DNA from: Saccoglossus kowalevskii
Lineage: Eukaryota; Hemichordata; Enteropneusta; Harrimaniidae
DNA length: 22,822 bases
Direction: 5' to 3'
NCBI RefSeq assembly: GCF_000003605.2
Contig: NW_003130355.1
Location: 395,097-417,918 of the forward strand
Below, in pieces: positions 1 to 18,164 of this stretch (position 1 is the first letter of the stretch; every line of letters begins with the position of its first letter). A program made the translations under genes and the position numbers. Under the pieces are notes generated by a model that saw only the letters and a list, made by a program, of their open reading frames with translations, did not search any database and was not told the DNA's origin.

Positions 1-853
1 AACGCGACCCCGTACACACAGCACTGTACACAGGACTAAAACAGCAACTGCCCACGAGATATAGCTTTTCATGCAATGGAATAGGTGGCAGCCAGTGCAC
101 ATCATAACATTTTATTTTCCATTTTATGAGCTTAGTTGTCTTTCATTGCTCTCCATGCGTATATTGGCAGGATGCCGGCAAGTGACAGGGTCTTAAAGAT
201 CGCCCTCTGTAGCTGAAACAAAAATAATTTCTCCCAATTGACTCATGAGGGTGTTCTTTACCTGGAAGTAATTTTATGGTTATAAGTGAAAATAACATAG
301 TTAAGTTTATGTCACTGTGATAAGAGTAATTTGTTTGTATAATAGCGTTGTCTACACACTGTGAACTTAATGTATTATATATATAAGTTCCAGCAAATCA
401 AATATCACATTGTGGTTTTACAGAATGCCAGTATACTATTCACAGTTATCCGGCATAGAAATAATACACCACCTTGTTTCAGTAGCACACAGCAATCTCA
501 GTCATGTTTAGGCGCTTAAATTTCACATCTAGATTCTGTACCAGAATTATATAAAAATGTTGGGAAGGTTAATCCAAAATACGTTGTATTTACGCAGCTG
601 AAAACTGATCATGGTTTTTTCAAACTTAGCCATTTAGGTGTATCGGGTTTGCAATTACCTGACAGGACATTTTGTAATTCAAATTGGACAGGTCATAGAG
701 TGATAAGGAAAACTGAAAACTAGCTTAAGACATCGCTTTATCGTGTATGTATTTGTTCAGTTGATATGAACAGATAGCAAAGTAAAAGATATAGCATTAT
801 GGTGAAGATATTTTGAAGGAAGTCAAAGATTTAGGAGAAGAAGTTAAACCAAC
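1..853. other. Vinculin intron after e23, running to the window edge
   Basis: A/T-rich sequence with no ORF of note. I looked on the minus strand for the conserved start of the tail domain and for further phase 1-1 proline exons and found none. A small palindromic cgccctctgtagctg stretch near 204 is unremarkable. Confidence 0.6.
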
Positions 854-907
854 CTGGCCTTGGTGGGCCGTGAGGAGTATAGGAACCATCAGTACTTGTT
901 TCATAGC
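854..907 (-). CDS. VCL: Vinculin hinge exon e23 (last exon in the window)
   Basis: 54 nt, phase 1 to 1. The acceptor TGTCTTCTTGCAG is strong and the donor is GTTGGT. It encodes [23 protein letters not shown] fits PxxPxR, an SH3 class II pattern. The following exon, which should bring in the tail domain, must start with a phase 1 acceptor left of position 1. Confidence 0.75.
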
Positions 908-3900
908 CTGCAAGAAGACAGTTCAGAGAATGCAGAGAAGAAAACACTCAGAAAAAAATGCGTTGCAGTGAGAAGTATTCATGCTGAGAAACAAGACACC
1001 CATTAGTATCACTTGTATAGTATACTGCCCTCTACAATGTAAGTGCATGTAAGTGTAGCAGAGCAAAGTATGCAACAGCGCCCTCAACCACAACAGAAAA
1101 GTAAGTTGTATTATTGTTTGTTGCCGTTAGTAATTCATTTCTGCACGTCTAATAATCTGTAAATTCGAGAATTAGAAAATATGAAACATTGTTAATTTAT
1201 AATGGTTACTAAGGAAACATAAGGCCATAGAAAGCATCTGATTTTGTGACCGTAATTTCAGAACAAACATTGTCAGAAAGATTGAAATAAGACGCTTCAG
1301 ATAAACCTCATTCTGTTCTGTTCAATGATTGCAGACTCGTGATGAAATGAGATTAGGTCACATATTATATCCTTCTCTGCCTTCAAGTTAAATCAACGCT
1401 GTCGTCGTAACTGAACATACACATGTAGGAGGTTCACATACTACTGTAACATGTTTTTAAAAAGCAGCTAAAATCCTGGTTACTTTTACAGGTAAACTAG
1501 TAAATTCAAACAAATTCTGTGTCAGGCTAGGTCAAAGTTCATGGGCTTTAGGAGTTACGCGTAGTACATGTGATGTACATCATGACTAAACACAAGCAAA
1601 GTTCTGACGACAGTGTTGCTTTTAATGTGTTCTTAATTATGACAAAATTGTGTGCGTTAATAACATTGTAAAGCCAATCAATTTTTATTTAATCTTGCAA
1701 CATCATGCATTTATGTAAATCTGTGCAGCTACGTGTACTGTACCAACCAACCTTGGTTCATCACAGAATCTAAAACCGTATCAAGTTCCTTGTAAAAATC
1801 CTCAAAACCTGGAATGAGATGGAAGTCGTACATGGAAAAGGGAAAAAGGGAAAAGATTGTCAGAAAGGAAGGAGATCAACTTGATTGAAGGAGAAAAAAA
1901 AACGAAGGAAAAGCAGAGAAAATTGTGGCAAGAGAACAAACCTGGTTGGTTTGTGCTGGGCAGCTGGTGGGGTTTAGGAGGCGGCGGAGGTGGCACTCGA
2001 CACGTTTGCACGGTCGTCTTGTAGCCTACGAATAAAGCAGCAAAGATCATATTTTCACAATACGCAAGTTTAAAGTAAAGATGAAAATAAGAAGCACAAA
2101 GTAAACAATGAGAAGTTATGAAAAGAAGTCACACCTGACGAAGGAGAAAAAGAATTATGTGGTGGTGGTGGTTGCATAGCAACAGCCTTCGGTGGTGGAC
2201 TCAGTCCTGTTGGCAGACAAGAGCATAGAGAAACACAGCTAAGAAAAGGAATGCAGAAGACAAGCCAATGAAAACAGAGCGCAAAAATGATACAGCAAAA
2301 TTAGAGGTGGAAAGCTGAGCCTAACCTGCAAACGAACTTGGTTTTGGAGCCGCAGTGTTGACAAAGATGGTAGCGTTGAAGTCATGCCCTGACAAACAAC
2401 AAGACAGCATACAAAAGCAAAACACAAACTACATACTGAGCATGTGCAAAAAAAGTACAGAGCTAATAACACCACATGCAAATCATTGCACTCACATGTA
2501 CATGTTCTCATTGAGAGCCAATCAGATGTCAGCAAATATTTCAAAAATAATCTGCTATGAACACAATGCTTCTTATTTTCCCTGGATTCAATGTGATGGT
2601 TCCCCCATCTTCCTTATTTAGTTGGTTTTATTCTGGGAAAGATTCTAAAGTCCACAGGAATCCAGAAAAGCACATTAAGTTGCACAGTATTGCTGATTTC
2701 CAAAACACTATGTTGCTAGGTACGATGCAAAAAGAAGGAAATAGCAAGTTCATCTTTACAAAGCTTAAGTTTGTGCAAAAAATTGGAAGAAAAAAAAGAT
2801 TGGGAAACAAACCTGAGAACGGAGCAGCTACAAGTGAAGGTTGTGGAGGAATAGAGTGTGGGATGGTTCTTGCATTCAGTTGTCTAAGAGGAGTTGATGG
2901 CAGAGTAGTGCTAGCAGGCAAAGACTGGTGTGACAGCGCTGCGCTCGGTTGGAAAGATGATAAACTGTGAGGATTTTGCGAATAAGATTGCAAAATAGGA
3001 GATAATGTTCGTGGGAGGGAAGATGTTTCATATAGAGCTGCTGACTGGGGAGGGTTATAAGCGGATATGGTTGCTGGGTGATGAAGTGATGAAGAAGATG
3101 ATGCAGCTGCAGTGTGAACAGATGGTGATTCTGTTGAAAGTGGAGTTTCTAATCTCAGTTGGAAGGAAGGGGATATGTGCGTAAGTGGCAAATGGGAAGA
3201 CAAAGGAAGTGATGCGGCTCCAGGAAGAACAGGCATGGGAAGAGGACTATAAAGCGTTGTTTGATGCGAGCTGAAATTAGGAGGATGTGGAAGAAGAGAT
3301 GGCCCAGACAGAGATGAGTTTGAGTACACAGATGACGGTGGGAAAGTGGAAGATGCCGCTGAGAATGGATGAGATCTGGAATAAGCAGAGTTGGTGACTG
3401 GAAAGAAACAGAAAGAAGGGATTCTGCAATCTCAAAGAGTTCAAATATTTGCAGCTATAGATGCGAGTTAGATGTAATGAAGTTGAAAGATGAAAGAAGA
3501 ATGAAATAGATTAGATTTACACATTCAATGATTCAATAGCCGTAAAGTATTAACTATTGAGAAATAAAAAAAGAGTTAGTAGTAGTGTACATCAGTGAGA
3601 TGAAGAAGACTGAAAGTATCTGCCAAACCTGGAGAAGAGGAGACTTGTGGACCAGGAGAAGAGGAGACCTGTGGACCAGGTGGTGGAGGTGGTGGTGGTG
3701 GCGGAGAGGATACAGAATGTTGAGACCTGGAATTCAATGCTGCGAGACAAAGAAAAACAATAGAAATGAAGACACAACACTCGGTACATAGAGGAAGCTA
3801 TAAACGAATAAATAGTTGAAGTTAGTAATGGTAGTACCGTAGTAATGGTAAAGTGAGTGTACAAGTCTGACATGGGATATTGTAAGTTATGTAATATAAG

Positions 3901-6900
3901 TGAAAGTAATGTACAAGGCTGACTGGGATATCGTAAGTGATGCTGTATAAGTGACTATGGATAGGCGAGATTGACTGTGATTCTGGTTTAATATTTTATG
4001 AATGAAAATACAAGTTATGATGTTCTTGTTCTTCTTGACTCGTTATGTATGAATTAGAATATGCTGTGAATTAAAATGTACATCAATGATTAGAAAAATG
4101 AAAACGCCACACATGGTAGTAGGTTGAGGAGACGAATGATAAGACAAAGTGACAAAAAACAGAAATATCGACTGAATTCACAGTTCAATGAAAACAATAG
4201 GAAAGCTATATATTCAACATTAACTACAGTTACTATGACAACAAAAGTAAACAAAGAAACACAAATAAAATAAACACCTTTTGATGATGGGGAGGAAGAA
4301 GGAGACACACCGGATTCACTGGGAGGTTGCTGCATCATCTGTTCGCGTCGAGAAGCATCCAGCTGATCGGCCGATATGCCTAGACATCGAAAAAACATGC
4401 AAAGGAACAGAAACAAGAAAAACAACGAAAACAATGTCAGAACAGATTGAAAGGAGAAAGAATAATAATAATCACAGGAAATAATTATACTTTACAGTCA
4501 AGAAAGAAATAGACATAATAATATTTTAATAACACAAATTGTAAACGAAATGAATTAAAAAACTGAATAGTATTAATTTTCATATAAATTTGTTGCATTG
4601 TGCACGAGTCAGATCAAATTCCCTTGCATAAAATTGTTATGAGATCTCATCAGCGTTCCTAGGTGATCCTGTTGCATTGTGGGATATTTCATACATGTAC
4701 AATACAACAGCTGTAATCCTTTCAATTTTATGAACCAATTAAGTATAACTGTTTTGAAACACAGTCGGAGTTAAGCACCCCCTAGAGGCAAGATTCCAAT
4801 TCCTTTGTTTTTATTATATAATCATGAGTTTGGAAGCGCATTGACGACATGAACAAATCCATGTTACTCTGCAACTCTGAAAAGAAACTGTTCATGAAAT
4901 ATGTTTACATTGAATGTGTAATGTGCAAAATGCTACAGTGAAAAGAAATAAGCAGTGAATACACCCCACCAATGCATACCTTTCATCCCTATCAACAATA
5001 AATGTGATCACCCTTGCAAACAATTCAGATCATACCATTGTAGCTTTAGGGGTAAAGTAGACAGTGAAAGCAAGAAGAAAAAGTTTACCTGGTTGGCCTG
5101 AAGAATGCAGCAATTGACGATCTAATGGACGATGTAAATCTACAGAAATAAGATGAGAGCAGAGCAAAGATATGCAAATTTACAAAGCGAGAATAAAGAA
5201 AGAGTTTTCGAGTGATATTTTCAGATTTGACTTGGTTGAGGAAGATGACATAAAGGAAAAGAAGTGCAGTCTGTAGCGATGTGTCAAGTTCATCACTACA
5301 CTTTTTATAGAATGCAGTGATATTTGACTTTTACTAAAATGGTGATGCTACTGTGATACCGAGGGTATAGAGGTAGGTATGGGTTAAACATAATGCAAGA
5401 GTGTAGATTGCGCGAGCTATTAAACAAGACTGAGCCATTGTAGGCAACAGATGCATTGTCTACCTTTTAAGCATTTACATCAAACACAAAAACTCACCAG
5501 CTTCACTGATGTGCAACTGGCTCATATCTGGCGGTCCTGGAAACTGTTCTTCTGGAATTGGTTCTGGAGCAGGAGGAGGTGGGGGGTACTTCTCTCGCTG
5601 TGACATGAGGATAGCTTCACGGACACCGCCAACTGCATCAATTAACTAATTAGAGTAAGGGAATAATGTTTTGTGATCAGTTTCTGGGAGCAGAGGAATA
5701 GTGTACACTAATTTTATTTCACATAAACTGTAGAGGAATACAACTGCAAAAAATAATATGCATGAAACTACAATTTTCAAATAGCTGAAATAAATTTCTG
5801 AAAATCTTTTTTTTACACGTATACACCAAACTTAAAGATTCACATTTCAGGGTATAAACCACATGGCCACCATCAACTAACATCCATAATAGTCCTGCAC
5901 CCATTCATACAAGATATGCAAATAAGCTCATTATAAATGATGCATACAATTATACAAAGTTGAAATAATACTTTTCCATTATATGGGTATGCACAATCTT
6001 ATACTATATGAATACTGAAATTACTGAAATAATTAACTAAAACCAATTAATGTCACAGACATTTACATTTTAGCCCTCAATAGTAAAAATTCCCCTCCCC
6101 TAAAACAAAAAAGTTAACATACATGCTTGTCCGAGTTATACCATCCATCTTGTGCATTTCTGTCGCTAGGGTTACTGGCTACAGCCTTGGCATTTATAAC
6201 CAATGGTGAGATACCTAGAATAGAATCAGAAAATGTCAACACTGAAACAGAAAACAACAACCATTTGTCAGCTGTGGGGCGTGAGCCACCAACTAGTTCA
6301 AATCTGCACTAAATGCTGGTCAAATGACATAAACTACGTGTATACAATTTGAATAAATAAACAAATGCAACCAGGTCAGTAAAGGACTATATGGCATCCA
6401 AAACATAACGCGTTGAAAATAGGAAAAATATCTCCTTGTACAAGTACGGTTATACCATAATTATTGTGCCATATTGTTGCATGCCCCTCTGCATGGTTTG
6501 CCACTGATTCTACGGACATTTTAAGATGACAAAACAATTATTAACAGTAATCCACATTGAATAATTAAGGAAATGAATCTTCATTTGCAGATAATAATTA
6601 TTTAATATCATTTCCATTTTTGTATCTTTCATCTCTACATTACCCAATGGAAACAAAAGAATAATCAAACATAACTCACGTTGGGTCATACGTTCCGAGG
6701 CTTCGCTGACCTTCTGTACAAAGTTAGGATCTTCAGAATTCTCCACTTCCTGGTTAGCTACCATGAAAACTCGATTGGCACGGCGAGCCATATTGGATGC
6801 ACCACTCACGATCTGTGCTGGGTCTTGGTTCTTGATGGCACCATCCACCATGTTGCTATCGTGCTTCAACGCTTCCTCTGAAAGGAGTATGAACAAAAAG

Positions 6901-9900
6901 ACACAAGTTGAAAAACCTGGGATTCATTTCTCCCCAATGGGTGCTTTATCAAAATTAAAAATATTTTTAAGGGATATTTTTTTATCCACCCTCAGGAGAT
7001 TTTTGTCATTTCTGTATTCCTTTCTCTTGATGAGGTCATAAACAATTCCAGTGAAAAACACCAACATTTTGGTTGTTCTGATCTAGGAGCAATCTCAATA
7101 ACAAAATGTTGGTGGTTTTCACTGTAATGATGGACAAATTCGAACACCACAATGTGATATAATCTGGAAATGAATCAGTAACACAAAACTTATTTTATAA
7201 TTCATTACCTGTAGACCACTCATCTCAATTGAAAACAACCATTGGGACAACAAAGCACTGTTATAGAGTAACACATGTGATCTACCCCAAACTTGTTCAT
7301 TACCAAAACTTAGTCAATGTTGTCGATATCAAAAAAGCAAGCACACCTGTAGCTTTGATGAAAGACACAGTATCTGTCGCTTCATCTACGAGTCCCGTCA
7401 ACTTCTCCATATTGCCGGTCCACTCCTTCTTCAGCATTTCAAAATGCTCCCTGGCAGCCTGTAAGAATTGCAAACGGCGTTAATTAATCTAAAACAAAGG
7501 ACATATTAACACTTATATTTATCATATAATGGAACATATTCGTATTGCTATTTCACCAGAAGAAGATACCGGTAATGTTGAAAAACATGGTCAAACTATG
7601 GTAGCCTTGCCAGTATCATTACAATATAAATATGTGAGCACACTTTGACCTCAACTGGGCTGATACCTGATATAAGGCACTCCTAGGCAGGCACACCCAG
7701 AGTTAAAGAAAAACTGGAATTGTAATTGCATATTACAGCGTATGACATGGTGGGAGTGCATACAAATTCTCAGCAGTCGCTGGGTTGGTGTGGCTTGTTA
7801 GCTGTTGTACATATACGGTAGCGTTGTTTATGTGTGGGCTTCAAATACGAACACAACGTTCAACACCATCAATGTGGTGAAAACCATCGACGATGCTGAA
7901 CGTTAGTTGCATGGAGCGTAAATTTCAATAGAACTCACTGTAATGATGCATGCGCTGTGAAATAAGGAAAAAGAGCCCAAGGCATATGCACTGCATACAC
8001 AATATTCTAATAACTTTTAACAAGGTTATGATGTAGACATATTTCATGAATATTATTTGAAAGTGAAACTATTAATAGAAAACATTTAGTATGACACGTC
8101 AGAATCATGTATATTCGATCTTGACCCCCACTCTGTCTAGTGTGGATATTTGAAGACTGTAAACACTTTCTAGGTATAATACAAAACTGGTCACTAAATT
8201 TAACAAGTGTATCTAGCATATATACTCAAATCGGTTTCAATAGGTTTTGATTGCATACAGCGCCACCTGCAGTTTGTTCCCGGCTCTATGCGTCTAGGCA
8301 CTAAGTCATCCATACACAAATTAAATACAAATTTCTGTAATGGGATTTTTTAAAGGGTGATGGTCGTTGTGCGGTTTTTGTATTGATAAAAATTGATTTT
8401 CCCCAAATCCAATGCACTCTTCTAAAGGAAATTATGAGTATGAGTTTTGATTTGGGCTCGACATGCACTAAATATTCCCATTGACTTCTTTGATATCACC
8501 AAGAAAATTACTTTAGTTAATACTTGATAACGTTTTAGTTTGTACTTGTTGGTTTGTGCAACAGTCAAAGTCGCCATCGTTCATACAAGACCTCGGACAG
8601 TTGTGGTGCGATAACCACAGACCACGGTGGAAAAAGTTAGTAGTTCTAATGATCACAAGGTCACAGTGATAAATAAACATTGCAGTCACAACAGAAATAC
8701 ACAACCAACATTGAACAAAAATATTTTAGAAACTAAAAATCTTAATTAATGAAAGAAATCTAAACAAATTTTAAAATCTGCCTATCGTAGGGAAAACAAA
8801 TAAACAATTATAAAATTATGGACCTCAGTTCTCAACAAATTCTGCAAAGGTTACACAGTATATGAGTAAAAATGCGGGGTGTACCATTATTTCTGATAGG
8901 GTGGCTAAGCAAGAATTGTTGAAGGAAAAAACAAATAATTTTGTATAATTTCGCAGAATGAAAAATAACTTCCAGATTATACAGTATTGATTTAAAACAA
9001 ACAATCTCAAAATTGGTAACCAATACACCCCCAAAAATAATGGTATGTCCCAAAGTGTGAATGCAATGCACACTAGACAGACATTTCAGCCAAAAGCAAC
9101 TTACGTCATGTCGCAGTCTTTCCTGGTTGCCATGGAAATGCATGAAGAAATGGATGAGTGAATGTTAGTGCTAAAGCAGTGGTTAGTGTCAAAGCGACAT
9201 TAACACAGGGTTTGAAATTGACGTAGTTGGGAGAGCGAAACCAATGCAAGGAGCCATATAAACTTATGATGATATATAGACAGTAACCTTCTATATGTAA
9301 ATTCAACAATAGATCTTGTACAGTGAAAATTTCACTGGGATCACAAGAAGAAAAGTTGTCCTCACCAACACCATTAAATCATTTACTGTAGCTACATGTT
9401 CAGCACAAAATAAGGATGCTTTGTTTCTTACTTGGAGGGGAGGGGAGGGGCCATTATTTTATGACATCATTTCAAACCCAGAGTTATATGCTCTGATTGG
9501 TCTATAAGCAGGGATTTTGACACAAAGCTAACATGGCATACAAGTTATTTTGTTATTGTTAACACTAGACAGATGGTAATGCAAAAAGTTAACTATTATT
9601 CAACAAGTTTGAATTTCCTTAGTATAAGCTATTTTCACTGAAGACAAGTTTACCAGCATGTACAAAACAACTCTGACATGCACAATTCTCTGTATTAATT
9701 GTTTAGGAATAAAGTTAAAAACAATTCTTGAAAATAGAAGAAAAATTAACAATCCATAATTAATTTTCACTAAATCCAAGGAAGACAAGATTTAATATAA
9801 TACACTCACCTCATTGTCAGGATTTTCTAGCAATATACGTCCAGCATGGATTACTTGAGGAGTCATATCACGAACCTACAAACATTATTTAAAAAGAATA

Positions 9901-12900
9901 TTGAACAATGTGGAACTGGCACTTGATGAAAAATAGGATGACTATATCTCACAAAATTCTTCCGTAGATTGAATCTGGTTTTATACCTGTTGGGATCTGT
10001 CATGTATTGCTTCTACAGTTCTTTTATCATTACAACCACCAGCTTCAGCCACTCGCTGCGCAGTGTTGGCAAGACGACTAGAATGCTGATCAAATGAACC
10101 AGCTTTATTACTGAACTCTGCCTCTCTGTTTGGAGCACCTGAAAGGATATTGATATGAGTGAGCCATCTAGTGGCAAGTATGGAATAAACTTTTGTTTTC
10201 ATCACTTGGTTTTGTGCTGGGTTTGTTAAATGAGGGTGATTTGGTCAAATTTCTTAATGCTGATTGATAAGGGATACTGCAACATTTTGAAGAGAAAACT
10301 CTTATATACCAATATAGAAGAGATATTATTCAGTAAAATCAGACCAGCAAATGTCATCAATAAAAAAATATCTATGTTCTAGCAGAACCATGCACAATAA
10401 ATCTGATGGCTAACTTTCCAAATGAATAAAGCAAAAGATGAAAATTCAAAGGGAATACAAAAGTTAGAATGTCATTACCTGGTGGAGCATAAGCGGCAGC
10501 ACTAAATTGCTTCAATGGCGTGGTTGTGTCAATAAAGACTTCAGCCACCTGTGAATTAAAATGAACAGTTGTTTAGTCTCAAATTCACAGTAAATTGTAA
10601 TTGTTCACAATCACTTTGATGCAAAAACTAAATCTTTTACTTCACAGAATAAATGTGCCAGATAAATAAACAAGTGTTCATGAATAACAAATGAGCATAA
10701 GAATTTTCATATGCAAATATATCACCCAGAATGTATACTTTGCATTATGGGTAAATAATAAATGACCAAAATTTACCTGATTGACTAGTGATTGTTGAAT
10801 TGCATCTTTCAACTCCTGAAGTTTGGAAGACAGTTGACGACTGATAGCATGGGCTTGGGGTGTGTTGCCCTGTCCACGAGCACACAGATCAGCTAGCTGA
10901 TTGGTCAGTCTCTCGCAGTCATCACAGAGCTGATGTAGTCGGACACGCTCTGGTCCAGAGCATCCTTCAGCCACTTTCCGTCCTTCATTGATGACCATTC
11001 TCAGGGCTTGTTGACCTGGTGATCAAATTTATTAGCTGGTATGAGTTATCAATTTGTTGAAAAAATTAAAACATTTGTACCAACTGAGCTATTTGGTAAA
11101 TACTACTGGTAGTAGTAGCGTTCAGCAGTTGTTTGTAACAAACAGAGGGAATCAAAACTACATAATGTAGAGATTAACAAATTCGGTTTCAGTATAACAG
11201 AGTTATGAGAAAATAGAAAATAAGTCTTACCGAGACCCCTATCATCCACACCAGGAGAAGCCAACCACTGCTGCGCCTGTTCTACTTTGCCACTGACAGT
11301 TGGAGCCGGTTTACGGATACCACTCTGAGCATAGTGGGCTACGGCGCTGTTAACACGTCCAGTCAAATAGTCGACTCTATCTTGTATAGCCCTGGCAAGC
11401 TGCTGAGCCTGGGGAGTGTTGCCCTCCCCTCTCGCTCTCAATTCAGCTAACTGATCAGTCATTACTGTGATATCATCACAGAGTCTCAGTATCTCGTCTT
11501 TTTCAGGTCCCTCGCACCTTGCTCCAACTTTACGTGCTTCGTCAACAATCTGACGAATTGATCTTTCACCTGTCATTGTGAAATATTAGAGTAATATATA
11601 AAATAAGAATTTAAAGTACCGAAATGTAATGGCAGCAACTTTGTTTATTCATTTTAAGCAGCCCAGAGTGGGTGTTTAATACTCCTGACAGTAACTATGA
11701 CAACTAATGTTTTAACCTTTTCACCACTAGACTTTCACACCCAAATTAGTCTACACTTTTTTTTATATTCTTCCATATTTCTGGAAATGAATCCAAATTC
11801 AAACAAAATTTGAGTCAATTTTCAGTTTTTACTCAAAAGATTCAGCTATTTTTGTCCCAATCTTCTGAAGGAATGTGCAGACTATAAATGGGACTATTTC
11901 GTGAATTTGTGATGAAAAGAGGGTACTGGAGGTGAAAAAGATAAACAAATAAACAAAACAAAGAATTATGATGTACCCAAACCACCAGGTTCCGCGTGAG
12001 GGTTGCTCAACCAATCCTTGGCGAGGTCTCCTTTACCAAATATAGCGGCCTGGGCTTTTTTCATCACTGTGATATCATCAACATCCCAGCCTTCTTCATC
12101 GTATGTTGTCAGTTGCAATACACGAATTATCTCGTGTATTTCCTGCGACATCTTGGTAACCACGTAGTTTCGGTTCTCCTGTGATTCGCCTACACCTCTA
12201 CCGCCTGTGAAGTAAAAGAAAAATGTGTACATTTCCGTCAGCATTCACAAGTGACAGTATCAGTAGATTTGGGATGTCTCAATTATCAACAACAATGCAA
12301 CTAACTCAATGTATTCATACGTACTCATCTCGAGATACGTTAGCTATCGGCTGAGACATCAAATCGTAGATACATACCTGTTTGCTTGGTAGTGACGAAT
12401 ATCTTGATACCAGAAATCAGTACAGGAGTCAAATTCTTAACACTGTTGATTGAATACACTAACTTCTCACGATGAACTTGATGTGTCAGTTCTTTCTCTC
12501 TCTGGTCTATCATTTTAGACATTGTAGTCATTCCGGGAGTCAAATTCTATTTAAAAAAACATAGCAAAACTGTGGATGCCTTGCCTTATATAATTATATG
12601 TCACTCATGAAAGACCTTTTTCTTTATTAGGCATGGCAATATTCAACTTTGCAATTCTAACATGATAATGAGTACATTTTGAATTTTAAGAAAGACGGTA
12701 ATTTTTCTCTCTGTAGAAGCCCTGTCGAATTTTCACAGCTACAAGATTTCGCAGTTTTCCCAGAAATGCAAGAACACGTGCCAAACGTGACTGCAAGCAG
12801 TCTCTGCTTCTCACCACAGAGGGGGTAGTTCACCATTGCACTGCCAAATTGACATATTTTCTCTTCATTTTCCAATGTTAATTTTGTACTAAATGAAGTC

Positions 12901-15900
12901 CTAAGCGGCTTTGAATTTTTCATGAAATTTGCCTAATATTTAAGTATAAGACTTTATGAAAGGGGATAACATTTGACAATGGCAGTAAAAGGATTCAATG
13001 GCAACACCATTGATTAATACTTGTATCACTGCACATCTCAAAAAAAAAAAAAAACATTTCATAATTTTGTTTCATTTCCGCCAGAACACTCACCTTCACA
13101 AATGTTACCAGATCTTCCATTGATTCGACGACCTCAGCAATGGCTAAATATTCCAACACACTTTTACATACTCGGAGAATCTTCCTCACTTCGGCTTCGT
13201 CAAAAGCCAGTAGCAATGCTGAGGTACCTGACAAAATACCTGAATTTATACAGCAAAAAAAAATACTTTTACATTAAAACATATTTTCTACTTTCACTTT
13301 AAATATTTGTTTTTAATATGATGCTTTAATGATATACATGAATATACATAACAGTGTGATTTTTCTAAATGTTATAATTTGCATAATAAGAAATAATTAC
13401 AACATTCAACAGGGTACTAACATTCTGCTATATTAAAGCCAGAGAAATCATAAAAATAATTTGTTGTTATTGAATCACACTCAGTCAGGTACAGTTTGTA
13501 CCTATGATATTGGATACTTCTTCAGAATGTTGGGATATAGAGGAACACATAATCTGTAATATTGTTTGATTAAGAACTCTTATATTACCATGGTAACTTC
13601 AATCAGAAATACATTTCCACTAGTATTTCAAACAAGTTATGTTTTAATGGAATTGTCAATCCACGGAAGTCAAACTAAACCAATTATTTTAACTTTATAA
13701 ACATTGTTTTGTTTGGTTGGACTCCGGCCTTATGTGAATATTTTTCAGCGTTACATAATTAATTTTTATGTCATTGTGTCATTTCACTTGGTACGTGTCC
13801 CAGATTTGATAGTAGCGACCCAGGAAGACAGTGGAATAAGACTAGAGACAGTGGCCAAAAAGAGACACTGAGTCAGCAATGCCCAACTGCCAAGGGCGCT
13901 AACATCAAGTCATACACGTACGCATGACTGACTTCAGCATGACAGAAAATCCTTGTGTTGAGTCAGTTTCAGTTACAGTATTTACATGCGCTTGTAATAG
14001 TAAAATAATGTAAATGAAATCCACACACTCACAGTTGATCATTGGAATACTAACTTCCAGGTATGTTTTAAACCTATGACCTCCAGGATAAAAAGCCTGA
14101 AGCAACAAAAACAACATTAACAATTTATTTGTTTCTACCTCTAGCGCCATCTATCAATTTCTTCCTGGCAGGCACGGAGAATGGGTCATCCCTCAGCAAC
14201 CCTGATGCATCAACCAATAACCCAGAAGCCTCCTCCACCCTATTCAGTGCCAGCGGCATTTCTTGTTTAAGGACTTTATCGGCACTGGTCTCCGCAGTCT
14301 CACGACCAACCTGATAAATATAATTGAATCTCATTGTTTAAAAAATATATATCGATAACAGATATTAAATATGGCATAATGTTATGATAGATAACTTGAC
14401 AAGACAATATTTTGTTTTCACTTCACTGTTTGATATTTCCTAAAACTGATATAAGATTTTGTAGCACACTAATTACAAGTGATGATAATGAGGATTATTT
14501 TTTGGAGTTGTCATCCAAACTTTTTTGGGACTACTGGTATGTCGTCTGTATTTATATTTAGTGTATTCTTTTAGAATTCATAAGCATAATACTGTAAAAT
14601 ACTTTATTTTGGATTTATTTTATTTTGAATTCATTTTTGCTGGAGGGATGATTCAGTGAAAATAAAATCCAGTGAATATACCTTTTTTTTTTTTTTGTTT
14701 TACATTCAACTTGTCAAAAATCAGTGAAAATAAATTCAATAAACACACCTAAAATGTCTTTTTAGCGAAAATTAATTCCAGCTAAAATAAAATAATTTAC
14801 AGCAGTTAAAACTTAATCCGGATTGTTATTAAAAGCATAGCCAACAATTCAATCAGTAAAGTTGAAACTTGAAAATTGTTCCGTCATCATAAAAGTAACT
14901 ACTTGAAATGAGTATCAATGACATAAAAAATAAAGCTACATTTTCTGTTCTACAGAAATGTAATGATTCATTGCCAGATTTTAAAGTATGAAAGTTTGAA
15001 TGCCACAACATTTCCTGTCAAAATTATGCAAATTTTTTTTTCTATAATTTTTGATCAAAATTGTTATTTTTGTTGACAGTTGTTTTTCTGTTTAAAAGGT
15101 TTAAAATGGTATTAAACATAACTCAATCATAACATATTGCTGGCAATGATGGCATTCAAAATTTAAAATTGAGTTACAATTTTTCTATACTAAAAATCTA
15201 TAAAGGGCTAGCTAGCTAATATGAGAAGTGAGATACACTGGCTAAATTAAATATTTTCGCCATTCCTGATGGCAACAAGAGAATTCAAATCTGAAATACA
15301 GATAAACAGAATAAAAATACACCTGTCAAGTTAGTTTGGGATTATGTTGCAATGGTCTTCAATTTACCAGGTGTTTGTATTGAGTGTTGTGTTTGCATGC
15401 ATGATATATAATCAGGACGCAAGGTTTCAATGACACACAAGACCCAACATGTGTCCTGGTAAAACATTTATGCATATAATATTTGACTTCTTGTCTTAGG
15501 TCAGGGGGCAATGACACATAACCAGTTCAAAGCGCACAAGTTATAATGAGATTAACAAATCACCAAAAAGAATAATAATCTCTCAAGAAATTTGGGACAG
15601 CAAGTTGCCTCATTTACATACACATTTACATAACTTTAACTTTATTCACATAATACCATTTATTTACACTGACATTTAATTTCACTATTTTGATGTTTTG
15701 AGCATATTCACTGTGTTTTAAGTTCACAAATTTGTGAATGAAACAATGAGTTTTATTGTTACCGGGGTATTTCACATATTCACATATGTGAATTAATTTA
15801 GCAAATTTTACTTAGGCCACACCAACTTAATTTTATGGATGACATCCGCGCGCGCATTAGTTTTCGTCTGTTCTCAAAAAACAAAAACAAATCTCCGACG

Positions 15901-18164
15901 ACGAGTCTCTACAAATCGGTTTTCTGTCCTGTTTTCTCATATTGTAACAACGCGCCGGCTTGTCGTAAAACTCATTTTGGACTACCTCAAAACGTGCCAA
16001 TTTTGTCGTAAATGATTCCAACATGGCGACCACGCCACCAGAATACGTGAGCATAAAAGTTCAGAGGAAAAACGGAGGGATTGTCGTAGACTGGTACAGG
16101 GAGATGTGACGTGGTAGCGTCAAGTGAGTTTCGCCCAGACAACTTTAAGGACATATTGTCCAGAGTGGCTGTCTCGCGTTTCTTCTGCAACGATGAGAAA
16201 AATGGGAAAGGAGTGGAGGTGTATGGTGGCCTAAAACTTGGTCAGGTGACAAGTCAGTTTGGTTGCTTTGTCCGCATTGAAGTGTACAAAACTGCAACGA
16301 AAGTGAGCAAGCTCCACGGCCGAAAAGAAAATTTTCTTCTTATTTTTTTTTTCATTTTCTGATTCGGATAATTTGCTTGCACACACAGTGCAATGTTTTG
16401 TTAGTTATTGTCATAAAGTAGTGATATTTACATTCCGCCTTGACTTGTACTGAAAATGGTGTTCATGCTGTACCTTGAATGAAGTGTTTCTGACTGAAGG
16501 TACTTCATCATGACTACATGTACTAGAGCTTGTCTGAATGGGTTATACCTGTGACAGTAATACAGTACGAGATGTGTACATCAACATGTGCCTCCTACAA
16601 ATAAAGATTTCTTGTTGTTTTTTTGATACACTCTGTTCCGTGGTTCAATTCGTAATACCAACTCCGTAGTCGTGTGGTTTTAGCAGGATTTTTTTTTTTG
16701 CCCTCTCGCATTAGTTTTGGGGTCTCCAGAGAATGTCATCCATAAAATTAAATCAGTGTGGCCTTATCAACAAAAATAGCAAAATTAAAACCCAGTAAAT
16801 AATTAATACATTTACAGTATTATGTTGGAATAATAGCCATCTTTAGCATAAAAAACATTTGAGCACAGTAAAACTAACATGTTAAAAGATGTCTTCATTT
16901 CATTTAAACGCAGTATATTTTGACTGTTTTGAAGGTCAAAATAATGCTTAATTTTTATGATCATAAGATTTCTAAATATGGGCATTCCAAAGGTCAAGAG
17001 TTCAAAAAGTACTTTTGAATATACTCTACATAGTACATATAATGTGATATATGTGACAAATGTGAACAAAAATGGTAAATGTTTCTCAGAGATATAGTAG
17101 TATCTTTGATCACGAAACGAATCAACATGAAAAATGTGTATGCCAAATTGGAACAAAATATGCCAAATCACCTCCAAGATAACACATTTTCAACAAACAA
17201 GATAGCCACCAGTCGGCCATATTTAATCAAATCACAAAATAAATTGACAAGAAGCAATTTGATCAGATTGTGAAATGAATGGTCATGGAGATGGATTATG
17301 AAATTGAAGCTCGAATATATAACATTTTTGCTGACAGGGAGAACTGCAACTATATCAGACATTAACCTAGAGCCTGGGGATGATGATGAAAATATATCAT
17401 CCAGCTTGATACATACAAGTTATGGTCCTATGACCTCCAACCTTTGACCTATTACTGTGATTACATTGACACACACTGTGCCCAGATTTATGGCATACAT
17501 AAAATGTGATACATAAGCACAGCAAGCTGCTACAACATATGGTAGACTGTCAACATATCTGTGCTAACAATGAGGCGGTGGATTGGTTAAGTCAGTGTGT
17601 GAAATTACTGTCTACTCTTATGCCCAAGACAGGTAGTTTTCCAGTTGGGCTGGTAAAAATTAAAATTTGTATGCCAAAGGGTGTCATTGTTTTCTTCAAT
17701 TACAATTTCACTGAAAATATTACTGTATGAAGTTGAATGTCCTCTGATGGCTAAGACAAAGATCATGAAACAAAGAATGCAACAATTTCAAAGGAAAAAT
17801 TTAAATAATTCATTCTGCACTATGTTTTTGTGGTGCTAACATGAAATGGGAACAGAAGTATTTTAAAGTAGTTGTTAATGCAAGGCTGGCAAAATTGGAA
17901 AGTTACCTGGCCTGGTAATTGGTACACAACGTTTGATAATTTCAAACACTGATAGGGTGGGATTGGATCAGATGGTGAGTTCATGGATACAGATTGTGTT
18001 ACAATAATAGATTTGTGATAAGAAAATGATTGAAAAATATCAAAATGTCTTCTTACTTTGACCAGGTTGTTGACGGCGGCACATACAGCTTGCACCGGCC
18101 GATACAAATCGGGCATGGCATTGCCATCTTCGGCTTCTTCATGTAAGATTACAAGTTGGGAGAC
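854..18164 (-). CDS. VCL: Vinculin, 23 coding exons, incomplete at both ends
   Basis: This is the gene-level entry; exons are listed separately. Vinculin is a cytoplasmic adaptor at integrin and cadherin junctions. Its head binds talin or alpha-catenin, its hinge binds Ena/VASP and SH3 proteins, and its tail binds actin. The exon translations follow the vertebrate protein in order from about human residue 20 to the proline hinge: [87 protein letters not shown] and YPPPPP. Every junction has minus-strand AG/GT borders. The phases chain without a break: 108+172+146+169+228+339+239+70+152+66+112+198+92+148+51+102+111+585+63+72+84+57+54 = 3,418 nt. Alpha-catenin is excluded because the closest motifs and the proline hinge are vinculin's. 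Missing are exon 1 (right of the window) and the tail domain (left of it). The hinge is much longer than usual, and one central repeat is absent compared with vertebrates. Confidence 0.97.
908..1751. other. Intron between hinge exons e22 and e23
   Basis: No coding stretch with consistent minus-strand borders and phase was found. Nothing recognisable apart from ordinary A/T-rich intron sequence. Confidence 0.6.
1752..1808 (-). CDS. VCL: Vinculin hinge exon e22
   Basis: 57 nt, phase 1 to 1. The acceptor is ...CATTCCAG and the donor is GTTGGT, with a second possible GT four bases on. It encodes [18 protein letters not shown], an amphipathic-looking acidic segment quite unlike the Pro/Ser-rich exons around it. 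The phase fits only with the donor at 1752. It could be a short helix or a ligand motif. Confidence 0.68.
1942..2025 (-). CDS. VCL: Vinculin hinge exon e21 (polyproline, SH3-type motif)
   Basis: 84 nt, phase 1 to 1. The acceptor is ...TATTCGTAG and the donor is GTTTGT. It encodes [20 protein letters not shown] followed by LPSTNQP. PPPPPK fits the class II SH3 pattern PxxPx(K/R). In vertebrates the hinge binds SH3 proteins of the vinexin/ponsin family, so a similar role is inferred. Confidence 0.77.
2135..2206 (-). CDS. VCL: Vinculin hinge exon e20 (proline-rich)
   Basis: 72 nt, phase 1 to 1. The acceptor is ...TGCCAACAG and the donor is GTGTGA. It encodes [20 protein letters not shown] then PSS. 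It is a typical proline-rich hinge segment, and a CCA-rich codon run (tgg repeats on the plus strand) makes the polyproline. Confidence 0.75.
2326..2388 (-). CDS. VCL: Vinculin hinge exon e19
   Basis: 63 nt, phase 1 to 1. The acceptor is ...TTTGTCAG and the donor is GTTAGG. In the phase dictated by its neighbours it encodes [21 protein letters not shown] second open frame exists here, but it does not fit the phase chain. Nothing outside the gene context supports a function. Confidence 0.65.
2813..3397 (-). CDS. VCL: Vinculin hinge exon e18: 195-residue Ser/Pro-rich block
   Basis: 585 nt, phase 1 to 1, the longest exon seen. The acceptor CTTTCTGTTTCTTTCCAG is very strong and the donor is GTTTGT. 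The frame is open throughout. The product is rich in Ser, Pro, Leu, Thr, Ala and His. I see no Lys or Asp in it and only a handful of Arg and Glu. Typical segments are [38 protein letters not shown] and [18 protein letters not shown]. No domain is recognised and it looks intrinsically disordered. It has no equivalent in vertebrate vinculin that I know of. The opposite strand also has partial open frames, but these lack splice logic. Confidence 0.78.
3629..3739 (-). CDS. VCL: Vinculin hinge exon e17 (polyproline and 8-residue repeats)
   Basis: 111 nt, phase 1 to 1. The acceptor TTTCTTTGTCTCGCAG has a strong pyrimidine tract and the donor is GTTTGG. It encodes [12 protein letters not shown], a run of nine prolines, and GPQVSSSP twice. 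A second AG lies 13 nt further in. Using it would shift to a histidine-rich frame and break the chain, so the outer acceptor was chosen. Confidence 0.75.
3631..3678. repeat. 24-bp x 2 tandem repeat inside hinge exon e17
   Basis: The unit ggagaagaggagacttgtgg acca at 3631-3654 is repeated at 3655-3678 with one substitution (t/c). It encodes GPQVSSSP twice on the minus strand, so it is an in-frame coding minisatellite. Confidence 0.9.
3740..4277. other. Intron between e16 and e17
   Basis: Holds the 52-bp tandem duplication listed separately. It also holds a short repeat of tagtaatggta at 3823 and again at 3840. No exon was found. Confidence 0.6.
3859..3961. repeat. 52-bp tandem duplication, two diverged copies
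   Basis: The segment beginning gtacaagtctgacatgggat at 3859 recurs at 3911 as gtacaaggctgactgggata. The two copies continue with tattgtaagt/tatcgtaagt and end tataagtga. Several substitutions and a small deletion separate them. Intronic, non-coding. Confidence 0.8.
4278..4379 (-). CDS. VCL: Vinculin hinge exon e16
   Basis: 102 nt, phase 1 to 1. The acceptor is ...GATGTCTAG and the donor is GTGTTT. It encodes [20 protein letters not shown] followed by [13 protein letters not shown]. The first half is polar and possibly helical and the second half is Ser/Pro-rich. Identity rests on phase, position and composition. Confidence 0.75.
4380..5088. other. Intron between e15 and e16
   Basis: A/T-rich. 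The phrase tgttgcattgtg occurs at about 4590 and 4670. A 9-nt micro-exon-like AG/GT pair near 4980 was considered and rejected. No other feature seen. Confidence 0.55.
5089..5139 (-). CDS. VCL: Vinculin hinge exon e15
   Basis: 51 nt, phase 1 to 1. The acceptor is ...TTTCTGTAG and the donor is GTAAAC. It encodes 17 residues, [17 protein letters not shown], with no counterpart that I recognise in vertebrate vinculin. Support comes from the borders and the matching phase only. It is a plausible cassette exon because skipping it keeps the frame. Confidence 0.75.
5140..5497. other. Intron between e14 and e15
   Basis: No ORF, repeat or exon-like segment with matching phase was seen. Confidence 0.6.
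5498..5645 (-). CDS. VCL: Vinculin exon e14 (end of D4 and start of the hinge)
   Basis: 148 nt, phase 0 to 1. The acceptor is ...CTAATTAG and the donor is GTGAGT. Residues 1-19 ([12 protein letters not shown]...) end D4. Residue 20 begins the hinge with [29 protein letters not shown]. It aligns with human VAKVREAFQ, DFPPPPPDLEQLRLTDE. FPGPP fits the EVH1 ligand core FPxPP, and YPPPP is a weaker candidate, so Ena/VASP binding is a reasonable inference. Human Tyr822 aligns with Lys at the e13/e14 junction. Confidence 0.93.
5646..6122. other. Intron between e13 and e14
   Basis: A/T-rich intron with no recognisable content. The spacing of conserved residues across the junction leaves no room for a missing exon. 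Confidence 0.65.
6123..6214 (-). CDS. VCL: Vinculin exon e13 (D4)
   Basis: 92 nt, phase 1 to 0. The acceptor is ...ATTCTAG and the donor is GTATGT. It encodes [20 protein letters not shown] followed by [10 protein letters not shown], corresponding to human [20 protein letters not shown]. The junction with e14 keeps the human spacing exactly (23 residues from LQKSF to REAF). Confidence 0.93.
6215..6679. other. Intron between e12 and e13
   Basis: A/T-rich intron with no recognisable content. Confidence 0.65.
6680..6877 (-). CDS. VCL: Vinculin exon e12 (D3/D4)
   Basis: 198 nt, phase 1 to 1. The acceptor is ...CTTTCAG and the donor is GTGAGT. It encodes [40 protein letters not shown] and EASERMTQ. 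It corresponds to human EEAIKKDLDKC and [21 protein letters not shown]. It is one of the clearest diagnostic exons, and the identity with human is very high around VENSEDP. Confidence 0.96.
6878..7346. other. Intron between e11 and e12
   Basis: Contains the 23-bp foldback at 7049-7124 listed separately. Nothing else was seen. Confidence 0.65.
7049..7124. repeat. Foldback: 23-bp inverted repeat with 30-nt loop
   Basis: The left arm cagtgaaaaacaccaacatt ttg (7049-7071) pairs with caaaatgttggtggttttca ctg (7102-7124) at 22 of 23 positions. It looks like a very short foldback transposable element or a solo hairpin. No clear target duplication was found. Confidence 0.85.
7347..7458 (-). CDS. VCL: Vinculin exon e11 (D3)
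   Basis: 112 nt, phase 0 to 1. The acceptor is ...TTCTTACAG and the donor is GTGTGC. It encodes [30 protein letters not shown] and IKAT. This follows human AAYEHFETMKNQW and MTGLVDEAIDTKS. It is separated from e10 by the 2.35-kb intron 7459..9809. Confidence 0.95.
7459..9809. other. 2.35-kb intron between e10 and e11
   Basis: No coding exon is needed here, since the e10/e11 protein join is seamless against human. It contains an imperfect inverted repeat around aacgttca (7855-7870 with 7892-7904). It also contains a G-run cluster at 9434-9450 (gg, gggg, gggg, gggg) on the plus (template) strand, which could form a quadruplex. The short ORFs here have no recognisable content. Confidence 0.55.
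9810..9875 (-). CDS. VCL: Vinculin exon e10 (D3)
   Basis: 66 nt, 22 codons, phase 0 to 0. The acceptor is ...TTTGTAG and the donor is GTGAGT. It encodes [20 protein letters not shown] then NE, equivalent to human [20 protein letters not shown]. It is a symmetric exon inside a helical domain. Confidence 0.94.
9987..10138 (-). CDS. VCL: Vinculin exon e9 (D3)
   Basis: 152 nt, phase 1 to 0. The acceptor is ...CTTTCAG and the donor is GTATAA. It starts [20 protein letters not shown] and ends [11 protein letters not shown], corresponding to human [20 protein letters not shown] through STVEGIQ. The donor is followed at once by an in-frame TAA in the intron. Confidence 0.95.
10139..10478. other. Intron between e8 and e9
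   Basis: Short A/T-rich intron. Nothing recognisable. Confidence 0.65.
10479..10548 (-). CDS. VCL: Vinculin exon e8 (start of D3 after the repeats)
   Basis: 70 nt, phase 0 to 1. The acceptor is ...TTCACAG and the donor is GTAATG. It encodes [20 protein letters not shown] and then APP, matching human [20 protein letters not shown] and APPDAP. It is too short for a simple ORF scan, but its identity and phase are unambiguous. Confidence 0.95.
10777..11015 (-). CDS. VCL: Vinculin exon e7: last central repeat
   Basis: 239 nt, phase 1 to 0. The acceptor is ...GATCACCAG and the donor is GTAAAT. It encodes [53 protein letters not shown] and [10 protein letters not shown]. It is equivalent to human repeat 3. 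The core TNQLADLxARGxGxTPQA matches e6, which shows that the two exons are repeat paralogs. Confidence 0.95.
11231..11569 (-). CDS. VCL: Vinculin exon e6: one complete central repeat
   Basis: 339 nt, phase 1 to 1, equal to 113 codons' worth of sequence, so it is one family repeat (about 112 residues) in one symmetric exon. The acceptor is ...AATGACAG and the donor is GTAAGA. It begins [15 protein letters not shown], like the start of human repeat 1. It continues [18 protein letters not shown] and ends [20 protein letters not shown], like the end of human repeat 2 (TVDDRGVG). One repeat therefore stands where vertebrates have two. The upstream intron (11570..11976) shows no second copy. Confidence 0.96.
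11570..11976. other. Intron between e5 and the first central repeat
   Basis: This 407-nt intron is where a vertebrate-type additional repeat could have been. No repeat-like coding sequence or remnant (no ARGxGxxPQA-like segment) was seen on the minus strand. Confidence 0.65.
11977..12204 (-). CDS. VCL: Vinculin exon e5 (end of D1, linker to the repeats)
   Basis: 228 nt, phase 1 to 1. The acceptor is ...ACTTCACAG and the donor is GTACAT. Key segments are [28 protein letters not shown] and [14 protein letters not shown]. It corresponds to human [20 protein letters not shown] through DPSASPGDAG. It leads directly into the first central repeat. Confidence 0.95.
12378..12546 (-). CDS. VCL: Vinculin exon e4 (D1)
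   Basis: 169 nt, phase 0 to 1. The acceptor is ...TAAATAG and the donor is GTATGT. It encodes [20 protein letters not shown] followed by a segment ending KIFVTTKQT. It matches the human stretch [20 protein letters not shown] to TTKNS. The exon is two or three residues shorter than human at its 3' end, in the loop before the next helix. Confidence 0.95.
12547..13093. other. Intron between e3 and e4
   Basis: A/T-rich, with a 15-base A run at 13040-13054. No other feature. Confidence 0.6.
13094..13239 (-). CDS. VCL: Vinculin exon e3 (D1)
   Basis: 146 nt, phase 1 to 0. The acceptor is ...AATTCAG and the donor is GTGAGT. It starts [19 protein letters not shown] and ends MEDLVTFVK, equivalent to about human residues 115-162. 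This is one of the most conserved stretches of the family. The 5' GT completes the split glycine codon from e2. Confidence 0.96.
13240..14138. other. Intron between e2 and e3
   Basis: No exon or repeat was recognised. The codon-split glycine of e2/e3 joins cleanly across it. Confidence 0.6.
14139..14310 (-). CDS. VCL: Vinculin exon e2 (D1)
   Basis: 172 nt, phase 0 to 1. The acceptor is ...TTATCAG and the donor is GTAGAA. It encodes [16 protein letters not shown] through [16 protein letters not shown], matching about human residues 57-114. Where human has the phosphorylated Tyr100 in DPYSVPAR, this gene has Phe. Confidence 0.96.
14590..14806. mobile_element. Probable degenerate MITE with imperfect inverted ends
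   Basis: The left end tactgtaaaatactttattt is mirrored by the right end, whose reverse complement reads ctgctgtaaattattttatt. Internal segments such as gaattcatttttgctg and its mirror around attaattccagc also pair. The match is imperfect and the target duplication is unclear. A long T run (about 14680) lies inside. Confidence 0.4.
15812..15814. repeat. Left TTA target site duplication
   Basis: TTA directly abuts the left inverted repeat and is matched by TTA at 16764-16766. At only 3 bp it carries little weight alone. Confidence 0.5.
15815..16763. mobile_element. 949-bp non-autonomous DNA transposon, PIF/Harbinger-like
   Basis: The terminal inverted repeats are 31 bp. The left copy (15815-15845) starts GGCCACACCAACTTAATTTT, and the right copy (16733-16763, reverse complement) starts GGCCACACTGATTTAATTTT. 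28 of 31 positions agree. Flanking TTA triplets at 15812-15814 and 16764-16766 fit a 3-bp target site duplication. GGC-type termini and TTA/TAA duplications are typical of the PIF/Harbinger superfamily, so that assignment is an inference. No transposase is present. The interior is less A/T-rich than its surroundings and carries a short degenerate ORF and an AATAAA at 16600-16605. It sits inside a vinculin intron. Confidence 0.68.
16023..16362 (+). pseudogene. Unidentified ORF fragment(s) inside the transposon
   Basis: An ATG in a good initiation context (CCAACATGGCG) opens a 28-codon frame, [19 protein letters not shown] then IVVDWYREM, ending in TGA at 16107-16109. An overlapping frame, open from 16090 and shifted by one base, continues to 16362 with [20 protein letters not shown] and later [19 protein letters not shown]. 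Together they read like one roughly 100-residue protein broken by a frameshift. A splice donor-like CAAGTGAGT at 16121 offers an alternative explanation. An AATAAA follows at 16600. I do not recognise the protein. The sequence could be captured host sequence or coincidence. Confidence 0.3.
16764..16766. repeat. Right TTA target site duplication
   Basis: TTA directly follows the right inverted repeat, matching 15812-15814. Confidence 0.5.
18057..18164 (-). CDS. VCL: Vinculin exon e1 (D1, talin-binding helices 1-2)
   Basis: 36 codons, phase 0 to 0. The acceptor is ...TTCATAG and the donor is GTAAGA. It encodes [20 protein letters not shown] and then a helix ending CAAVNNLVK, equivalent to about human residues 20-56. 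The alanine matching human Ala50, which is central to the talin-binding groove, is kept (CAAV). The ATG inside the exon is not the start: homology continues upstream to the splice acceptor, so the true N-terminus lies in an earlier exon not found here. Confidence 0.96.

Follow-up and report, generated by a model that had tools for sequence, protein, structure and literature searches.

A vinculin gene of the acorn worm Saccoglossus kowalevskii with a long proline- and serine-rich hinge in nine consecutive phase 1-1 exons

The linker, or hinge, of vertebrate vinculin joins head and tail and is bound by vinexin/CAP SH3 domains, according to the available passages of PMC6070524. The constructs described in the accessible part of PMC2873289 comprise a head of residues 1-843 and a tail of residues 879-1066 with the helical bundle starting at 891, so that the vertebrate linker measures 35-47 residues. 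The DNA analysed here, a stretch of 22,822 nucleotides (nt) from Saccoglossus kowalevskii (contig NW_003130355.1, positions 395,097 to 417,918; the whole stretch is referred to as the window), encodes a vinculin orthologue on its minus strand. Its hinge is likewise proline-rich and follows D4, whereas it contains at least 393 more residues, which are distributed over nine frame-neutral exons. An earlier inspection of the window without database searches (the sequence-only reading) had claimed a vinculin gene with a hinge far exceeding vertebrate length. Pfam and PDB matches and a hinge of 429 residues bear this out; the value of about 60 residues assumed for the vertebrate hinge has to be lowered to the range given above. 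We consider it probable that this is the sole vinculin gene of a Saccoglossus-like hemichordate, that nine phase 1-1 exons have extended its hinge to some 430 residues or more, that the linker is disordered, and that some of these exons are putative cassette exons.

Metavinculin, a muscle splice isoform, carries an insert of 68 residues with an H1' helix between residues 915 and 916, which replaces H1 (available part of PMC2873289). It resembles the present case in having optional vinculin sequence C-terminal to the head, but its insert lies inside the tail and, therefore, gives no direct precedent for hinge exons. The metavinculin exon had been placed between hinge and tail in the sequence-only reading; in the same part of PMC2873289 the insert is located between the tail helices H1 and H2. 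For C. elegans DEB-1, the accessible part of PMC6527391 gives a coding sequence of 3033 bp, which is too short for such a hinge, and describes short N- and C-terminal isoforms. In a literature search with most subscription journals outside its range, none of the matches listed dealt with a vinculin hinge that is long or built from modular exons, which is weak evidence of novelty. PMC5043372 names both vinculin and Saccoglossus and deals, in its available part, with another subject.

The spliced model comprises 23 exons (e1-e23, numbered according to the sequence-only reading) and 1139 amino acids, is free of stop codons and has GT-AG at all modelled borders. The spliced head matched the Pfam family Vinculin (PF01044) with E=1.7e-196 over positions 18-631 of 852 of the profile, i.e., a vinculin head domain is present. 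A 471-residue piece of the head was compared to PDB sequences using HMMER and is nearer to vinculins (best E 7.7e-140) than to alpha-catenin (1.2e-21). The same piece matched the sponge-type VIN1 with 5.7e-67. A motif search found the first coding exon, which contains MPVFHTKTIESILEPVALQ and thus the canonical N-terminus, upstream of the window; therefore, e1 is the second coding exon and the true first coding exon precedes it. Two other loci of the assembly, both judged by eye, are alpha-catenin-like (C1491) and a catulin-like gene (C1731), and the gene in the window is apparently the sole vinculin gene. When the DNA at 800-5700 was searched against the assembly, only the self-match was obtained, and no second copy or haplotype was found.

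The hinge starts at MSQREKY in e14 (5498-5645, on the minus strand like all exons of the model; phase 0-1), the last conserved head exon, in which the HMMER alignment to vertebrate vinculins crosses the D4/hinge border. An 11-residue block of e14 was aligned by HMMER with the vertebrate FPPPPPDLEQL at the hinge start, and a second block of 14 residues resembles FPPPPPDLEQLRLTDE by eye. Nine exons follow, namely e15 (5089-5139; 51 nt, 17 residues), e16 (4278-4379; 102 nt), e17 (3629-3739; 111 nt) with a run of nine prolines and two copies of GPQVSSSP, e18 (2813-3397; 585 nt) with a Ser/Pro-rich block of 195 residues, e19 (2326-2388; 63 nt), e20 (2135-2206; 72 nt, 24 residues), e21 (1942-2025; 84 nt) with an SH3/profilin-type proline run, the amphipathic e22 (1752-1808; 57 nt, 19 residues) with a candidate DLC1-like LD motif, and e23 (854-907; 54 nt, 18 residues), the last exon found in the window. 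All nine have GT-AG borders, are open and of phase 1-1, and sum to 393 residues; counted from MSQREKY through the end of e23, the hinge has 429 residues. The splice model agrees exactly with the coordinates, sizes and phases which the sequence-only reading had given for them. Ten consecutive introns of the hinge are phase-1 introns (the tenth judged from the e23 donor alone) compared to 7 of 13 elsewhere in the model. For e16, an in-frame internal donor gives a form of 69 nt (4311-4379, phase 1-1), which outscores the form of 102 nt. A search of 1-853 for another acceptable exon with a phase-1 start gave none and, therefore, the hinge runs off the window edge, as had been proposed. Two repeats were observed in this region: a tandem repeat with a 24-base unit in the terminal part of e17 (3627-3680), which encodes GPQVSSSP twice and is a possible source of hinge length polymorphism, and a 51-base repeat with two copies (3850-3954) in the intron between e16 and e17.

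For an assessment of chance, splice-site matrices were trained on the conserved exons e1-e14 only, and the thresholds were set post hoc at the level of the nine exons; 12 of the 14 conserved exons pass the same thresholds. The minus strand of the 4.7-kb hinge region contains 11 phase 1-1 candidates, nine of which are non-overlapping, while the other two combine the e16 acceptor with different donors. Counting non-overlapping candidates of phases 1-1, 0-0 and 2-2, respectively, we obtained 9, 3 and 2 for the hinge minus strand, 0, 2 and 1 for the remaining non-exonic DNA of the minus strand (15,099 nt), 0, 0 and 1 for the hinge plus strand and 0, 0 and 2 for the upstream plus strand. In 100 Markov-1 resamples of the hinge, the mean number of phase 1-1 candidates was 0.32 and the maximum 3. 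The stop-free run around e18 extends over 267 residues versus a maximum of 237 in 200 hinge resamples. In the reading frame of the hinge exons, C makes up 50% of the second codon positions and the third position is AT-rich, which is expected of a coding sequence rich in Pro, Ser, Thr and Ala. This analysis confirmed the nine-exon hinge. Some of the shorter exons (e.g., e15, e19 and e23) could nevertheless be unused chance splice-site pairs, in which case the hinge would have fewer than 393 added residues. The short exons each carry little coding signal, the thresholds were derived from the nine exons themselves, three candidates of the same phase occur in one other piece of DNA (L017, see below), and e16 has a better internal donor. 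However, all nine exons share strand and phase, and with 0.32 expected and not more than three found in any of the 100 resamples, we regard this explanation as improbable.

The composition of e15-e23 is 20.6% Ser and 18.6% Pro, with 18 K+R and 17 D+E. No Pfam family matched these exons up to E=0.1 and no PDB sequence up to E=1. From the Pro/Ser-rich composition alone, we infer that the linker is intrinsically disordered. A proline-rich hinge follows D4 in e14 and e15-e23. Its binding motifs were compared to 2000 shuffles of the 429-residue hinge; the patterns were chosen post hoc, and all resulting P values are sensitive to composition. EVH1-type patterns are YPPPP and FPGPP in e14 and LPHPP in e18 (P 0.016). 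SH3 class II patterns are PSTPLR (e18), PPPPPK (e21) and PHGPPR (e23), all of them within e15-e23 (P 0.044). Proline runs of at least five residues occur three times, in e14, e17 and e21 (P 0.0005). One pattern resembling a nuclear export signal was found in the hinge, which is below expectation.

By analogy to the vertebrate hinge, the linker would tether head and tail and may present its proline motifs to partners of the EVH1, SH3 and profilin types. At 429 residues, a disordered chain would have a contour length of about 154 nm compared to 14-22 nm for 40-60 residues. In a simple scaling estimate, the effective concentration of the tail at the head would drop from about 3-7 mM (40-60 residues) to about 0.1 mM (429 residues); full inclusion of the exons should, therefore, weaken the autoinhibition between head and tail and ease opening, or widen the reach of the tail. 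With all nine exons skipped, about 36 residues of hinge would be left. As all of e15-e23 are frame-neutral, some or all of them may be cassette exons, through which each tissue would adjust the length of the linker and its set of motifs. The phase symmetry permits 512 exon subsets, and any subset can be skipped without a frameshift as the sequence-only reading had stated; this symmetry is a permission for skipping and no evidence of skipping.

Several results weigh against the account preferred here. The polymer estimate leaves composition, binding and crowding out of account. In other DNA of the assembly, phase 1-1 candidates were found in L017 (one on the plus and two on the minus strand), while L012 had none on both strands. 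Of 2000 resamples of e18 with its own composition, 70 were open in some frame and, therefore, the open frame of e18 alone is modest evidence. Among the motifs, the two SH3 class I patterns of the hinge are no excess (P 0.33), and the WW pattern PPxY is absent from the 429 residues. Regarding the splice sites, T is present at donor position +3 in six of nine hinge donors (e17, e18, e19, e21, e22 and e23) and in none of the 14 conserved ones (P=0.0008; one of four features compared), and this is the sole splice-site difference of the hinge found beyond the phases. Weak hinge donors as a sign of alternative splicing were unsupported in comparison to the conserved exons, both by donor scores (P=0.59) and by a generic donor consensus (P=0.43). 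Weak pyrimidine tracts were unsupported as well, the pyrimidine count being higher in the hinge than in the conserved exons (P=0.10). The Rbfox site TGCATG is not enriched, with three sites versus 2.0 expected (P=0.33); one of the three is located 43 nt past the e22 donor. The interpretation given in the sequence-only reading is partly supported: the gene, the long hinge and the frame-neutral exons are upheld, whereas alternative splicing and a combinatorial tuning function stay putative. By the acceptor matrix, hinge acceptors score lower (5.7-9.0) than those of the conserved exons (5.0-14.2), but the matrix was trained on those conserved acceptors without leave-one-out.

These splice-site data bear on a second explanation, in which the gene does have the long hinge but splices it constitutively: none of the nine exons would ever be skipped, the run of phase 1-1 exons would reflect additions inside one phase-1 intron, and a combinatorial system would not exist. 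Donors and pyrimidine tracts that match the conserved exons in strength and a TGCATG frequency without enrichment agree with it. Furthermore, on general grounds, exons added within one phase-1 intron need to be frame-neutral to be tolerated, whether they are skipped or not. Weak hints of a common origin also favour it: in a comparison of exon pairs (R1-R23 designating e1-e23), none of 200 shuffles scored as high as R15-R23 at the DNA level or R16-R20 at the peptide level, and R16-R17 had a P of 0.010 at the DNA level, all uncorrected over 36 pairs. On the other hand, short frame-neutral linker exons are often regulated, and the two usable in-frame donors of e16 count against purely constitutive splicing. 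Taken together, we judge constitutive inclusion to be possible, if somewhat unlikely. Exon duplication was rejected, as the few low P values among the 36 pairs, uncorrected as they are, include no clear case.

The searches for the tail, in vinculin a five-helix domain which binds actin and lipid, likewise weigh against the preferred account. A search of the assembly (4830 contigs, 572 Mb) with the Pfam vinculin profile gave 19 matches, none of which fell, for this contig, in the tail part of the profile, and a vertebrate tail sequence used as query found only the catulin-like C1731 with 38% identity; both searches score best candidates only and are blind to N. The tail was not found by eye among the L017 translations of at least 45 amino acids, L017 being the nearest readable DNA below the window, and no tail exon was found in 1-853 of the window. 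About 60 kb directly beyond the low edge of the window read N and, therefore, the connection between e23 and the tail, like any additional hinge exon, lies outside readable sequence. A third explanation draws on this, namely that e15-e23 form an alternative 3' part or are exons of a different gene with the same orientation, while the canonical vinculin transcript would pass from e14 directly to the tail. In its favour, the searches of the assembly yielded no tail exon, which keeps the tail junction out of view. Against it stand the common strand, the phase, which fits the end of e14, and the composition, which continues the proline-rich hinge of e14; in addition, no other protein family was recognised in e15-e23. 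Accordingly, we hold this explanation to be highly improbable. As a separate matter, e16 and e22 were tried as alternative tail helix H1 or H1' and rejected, since no significant similarity to the helices was obtained (P 0.09-0.45).

Within the enlarged hinge, the most amphipathic proline-free stretch is encoded by e22. All eight top helical moments listed for proline-free windows of 14 residues fall in e22, two of them extending one or three residues beyond it. The highest moment is 0.69, with P 0.0012 in comparison to 5000 shuffles of e22 itself. Its LDTVLDSV resembles the talin-binding 469-LDDILYHV-476 of DLC1, a peptide which sits in a largely unstructured linker (available part of PMC4938799). 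The strict LD pattern (L,V)(D,E)X(L,M)(L,M)XXL of Brown and colleagues, as quoted in the accessible part of PMC7703752, has no match in the 429-residue hinge; LDTVLDSV fails because it has V at two positions. By eye, it also fails the form I/LDxOOxOO given in the available part of PMC10281804, with S at one hydrophobic position, where the DLC1 peptide has H and fails likewise. The segment does conform to a relaxed, amphipathic DLC1-like LDx(L/I/V/M)Lxx(L/I/V/M), and its surroundings are rich in Pro and Ser. Each of two relaxed patterns has a single match (shuffle P 0.001 and 0.012); the LD patterns, like the helical moment, were picked after viewing the sequence, which makes these P values optimistic. 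Pattern searches for LD motifs yield many false positives according to the accessible part of PMC7703752. Paxillin of the same genome, intended as a native LD-motif control, gave no match, but neither did the control genomes. The e22 segment is similar to the LD motifs of paxillin and DLC1 in being an amphipathic segment inside a long linker, whereas the available parts of PMC7703752 and PMC4938799 name vinculin as a binder of LD motifs and here it is the candidate carrier. It is conceivable, though quite doubtful, that the optional, frame-neutral e22 carries an LD motif of vinculin's own, by which the binder would have turned carrier. Splicing would then decide whether vinculin, by way of its linker, can dock to talin R8, to FAK or to the tail of vinculin itself, beside a tether of tunable length.

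Upstream of e14 in the direction of the gene, the splice model and Pfam place thirteen conserved head exons on the minus strand, at 6123-6214, 6680-6877, 7347-7458, 9810-9875, 9987-10138, 10479-10548, 10777-11015, 11231-11569, 11977-12204, 12378-12546, 13094-13239, 14139-14310 and 18057-18164. The region 10777-11569 encodes two internal head repeats; the head of vertebrate vinculin has three. The upstream internal repeat aligns to residues 298-426 of human vinculin (6fuy) and also from residue 408 onward. Invertebrate vinculin heads (Drosophila, C. elegans DEB-1) have six helical bundles versus seven in vertebrates, according to the accessible part of PMC5201009. Judged from the alignments, the two internal repeats fit such a six-bundle invertebrate head and are an ordinary feature. 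Similarities to the talin rod below the cut-off were seen for residues 593-702 and 521-566 of the head model (Talin_IBS2B, 2.3e-5, and Talin_R4, 1.2e-4). In the catulin-like vinculin-family gene of C1731, the tail-like part is split over several separate open frames. An Rfam scan of the window gave no match.

Further observations concern the mitochondrial contig C4830 of the assembly (17,037 bases, of which 17,000 were analysed), in which COX1 was identified by Pfam, other mitochondrial genes by eye from translations and tRNAs by ARAGORN. On this contig, cob is the neighbour of nad5, nad2 comes before nad1, cox1 has an inverted orientation and the anticodon of tRNA-Lys is TTT. According to the available part of PMC3121625, an inversion of COX1 and a transposition of ND1 or ND2 convert the gene order of Balanoglossus to that of Saccoglossus kowalevskii, and the tRNA-Lys anticodon of Saccoglossus is UUU, which is also found in several other groups. 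The adjacency of nd5 and cob is described for hemichordates and Xenoturbella in the accessible part of PMC2697986. Gene order and anticodon of C4830 thus agree with Saccoglossus or a close relative. Near the end of C4830, the same translated stretch occurs three times, about 190 bases apart.

Length and content of the linker should govern the ease of vinculin opening and the choice of partners. A hinge of about ten times the vertebrate length in frame-neutral exons would offer a natural series for studying how tether length tunes autoinhibition and force transmission, and its host is a deuterostome amenable to keeping and sequencing.

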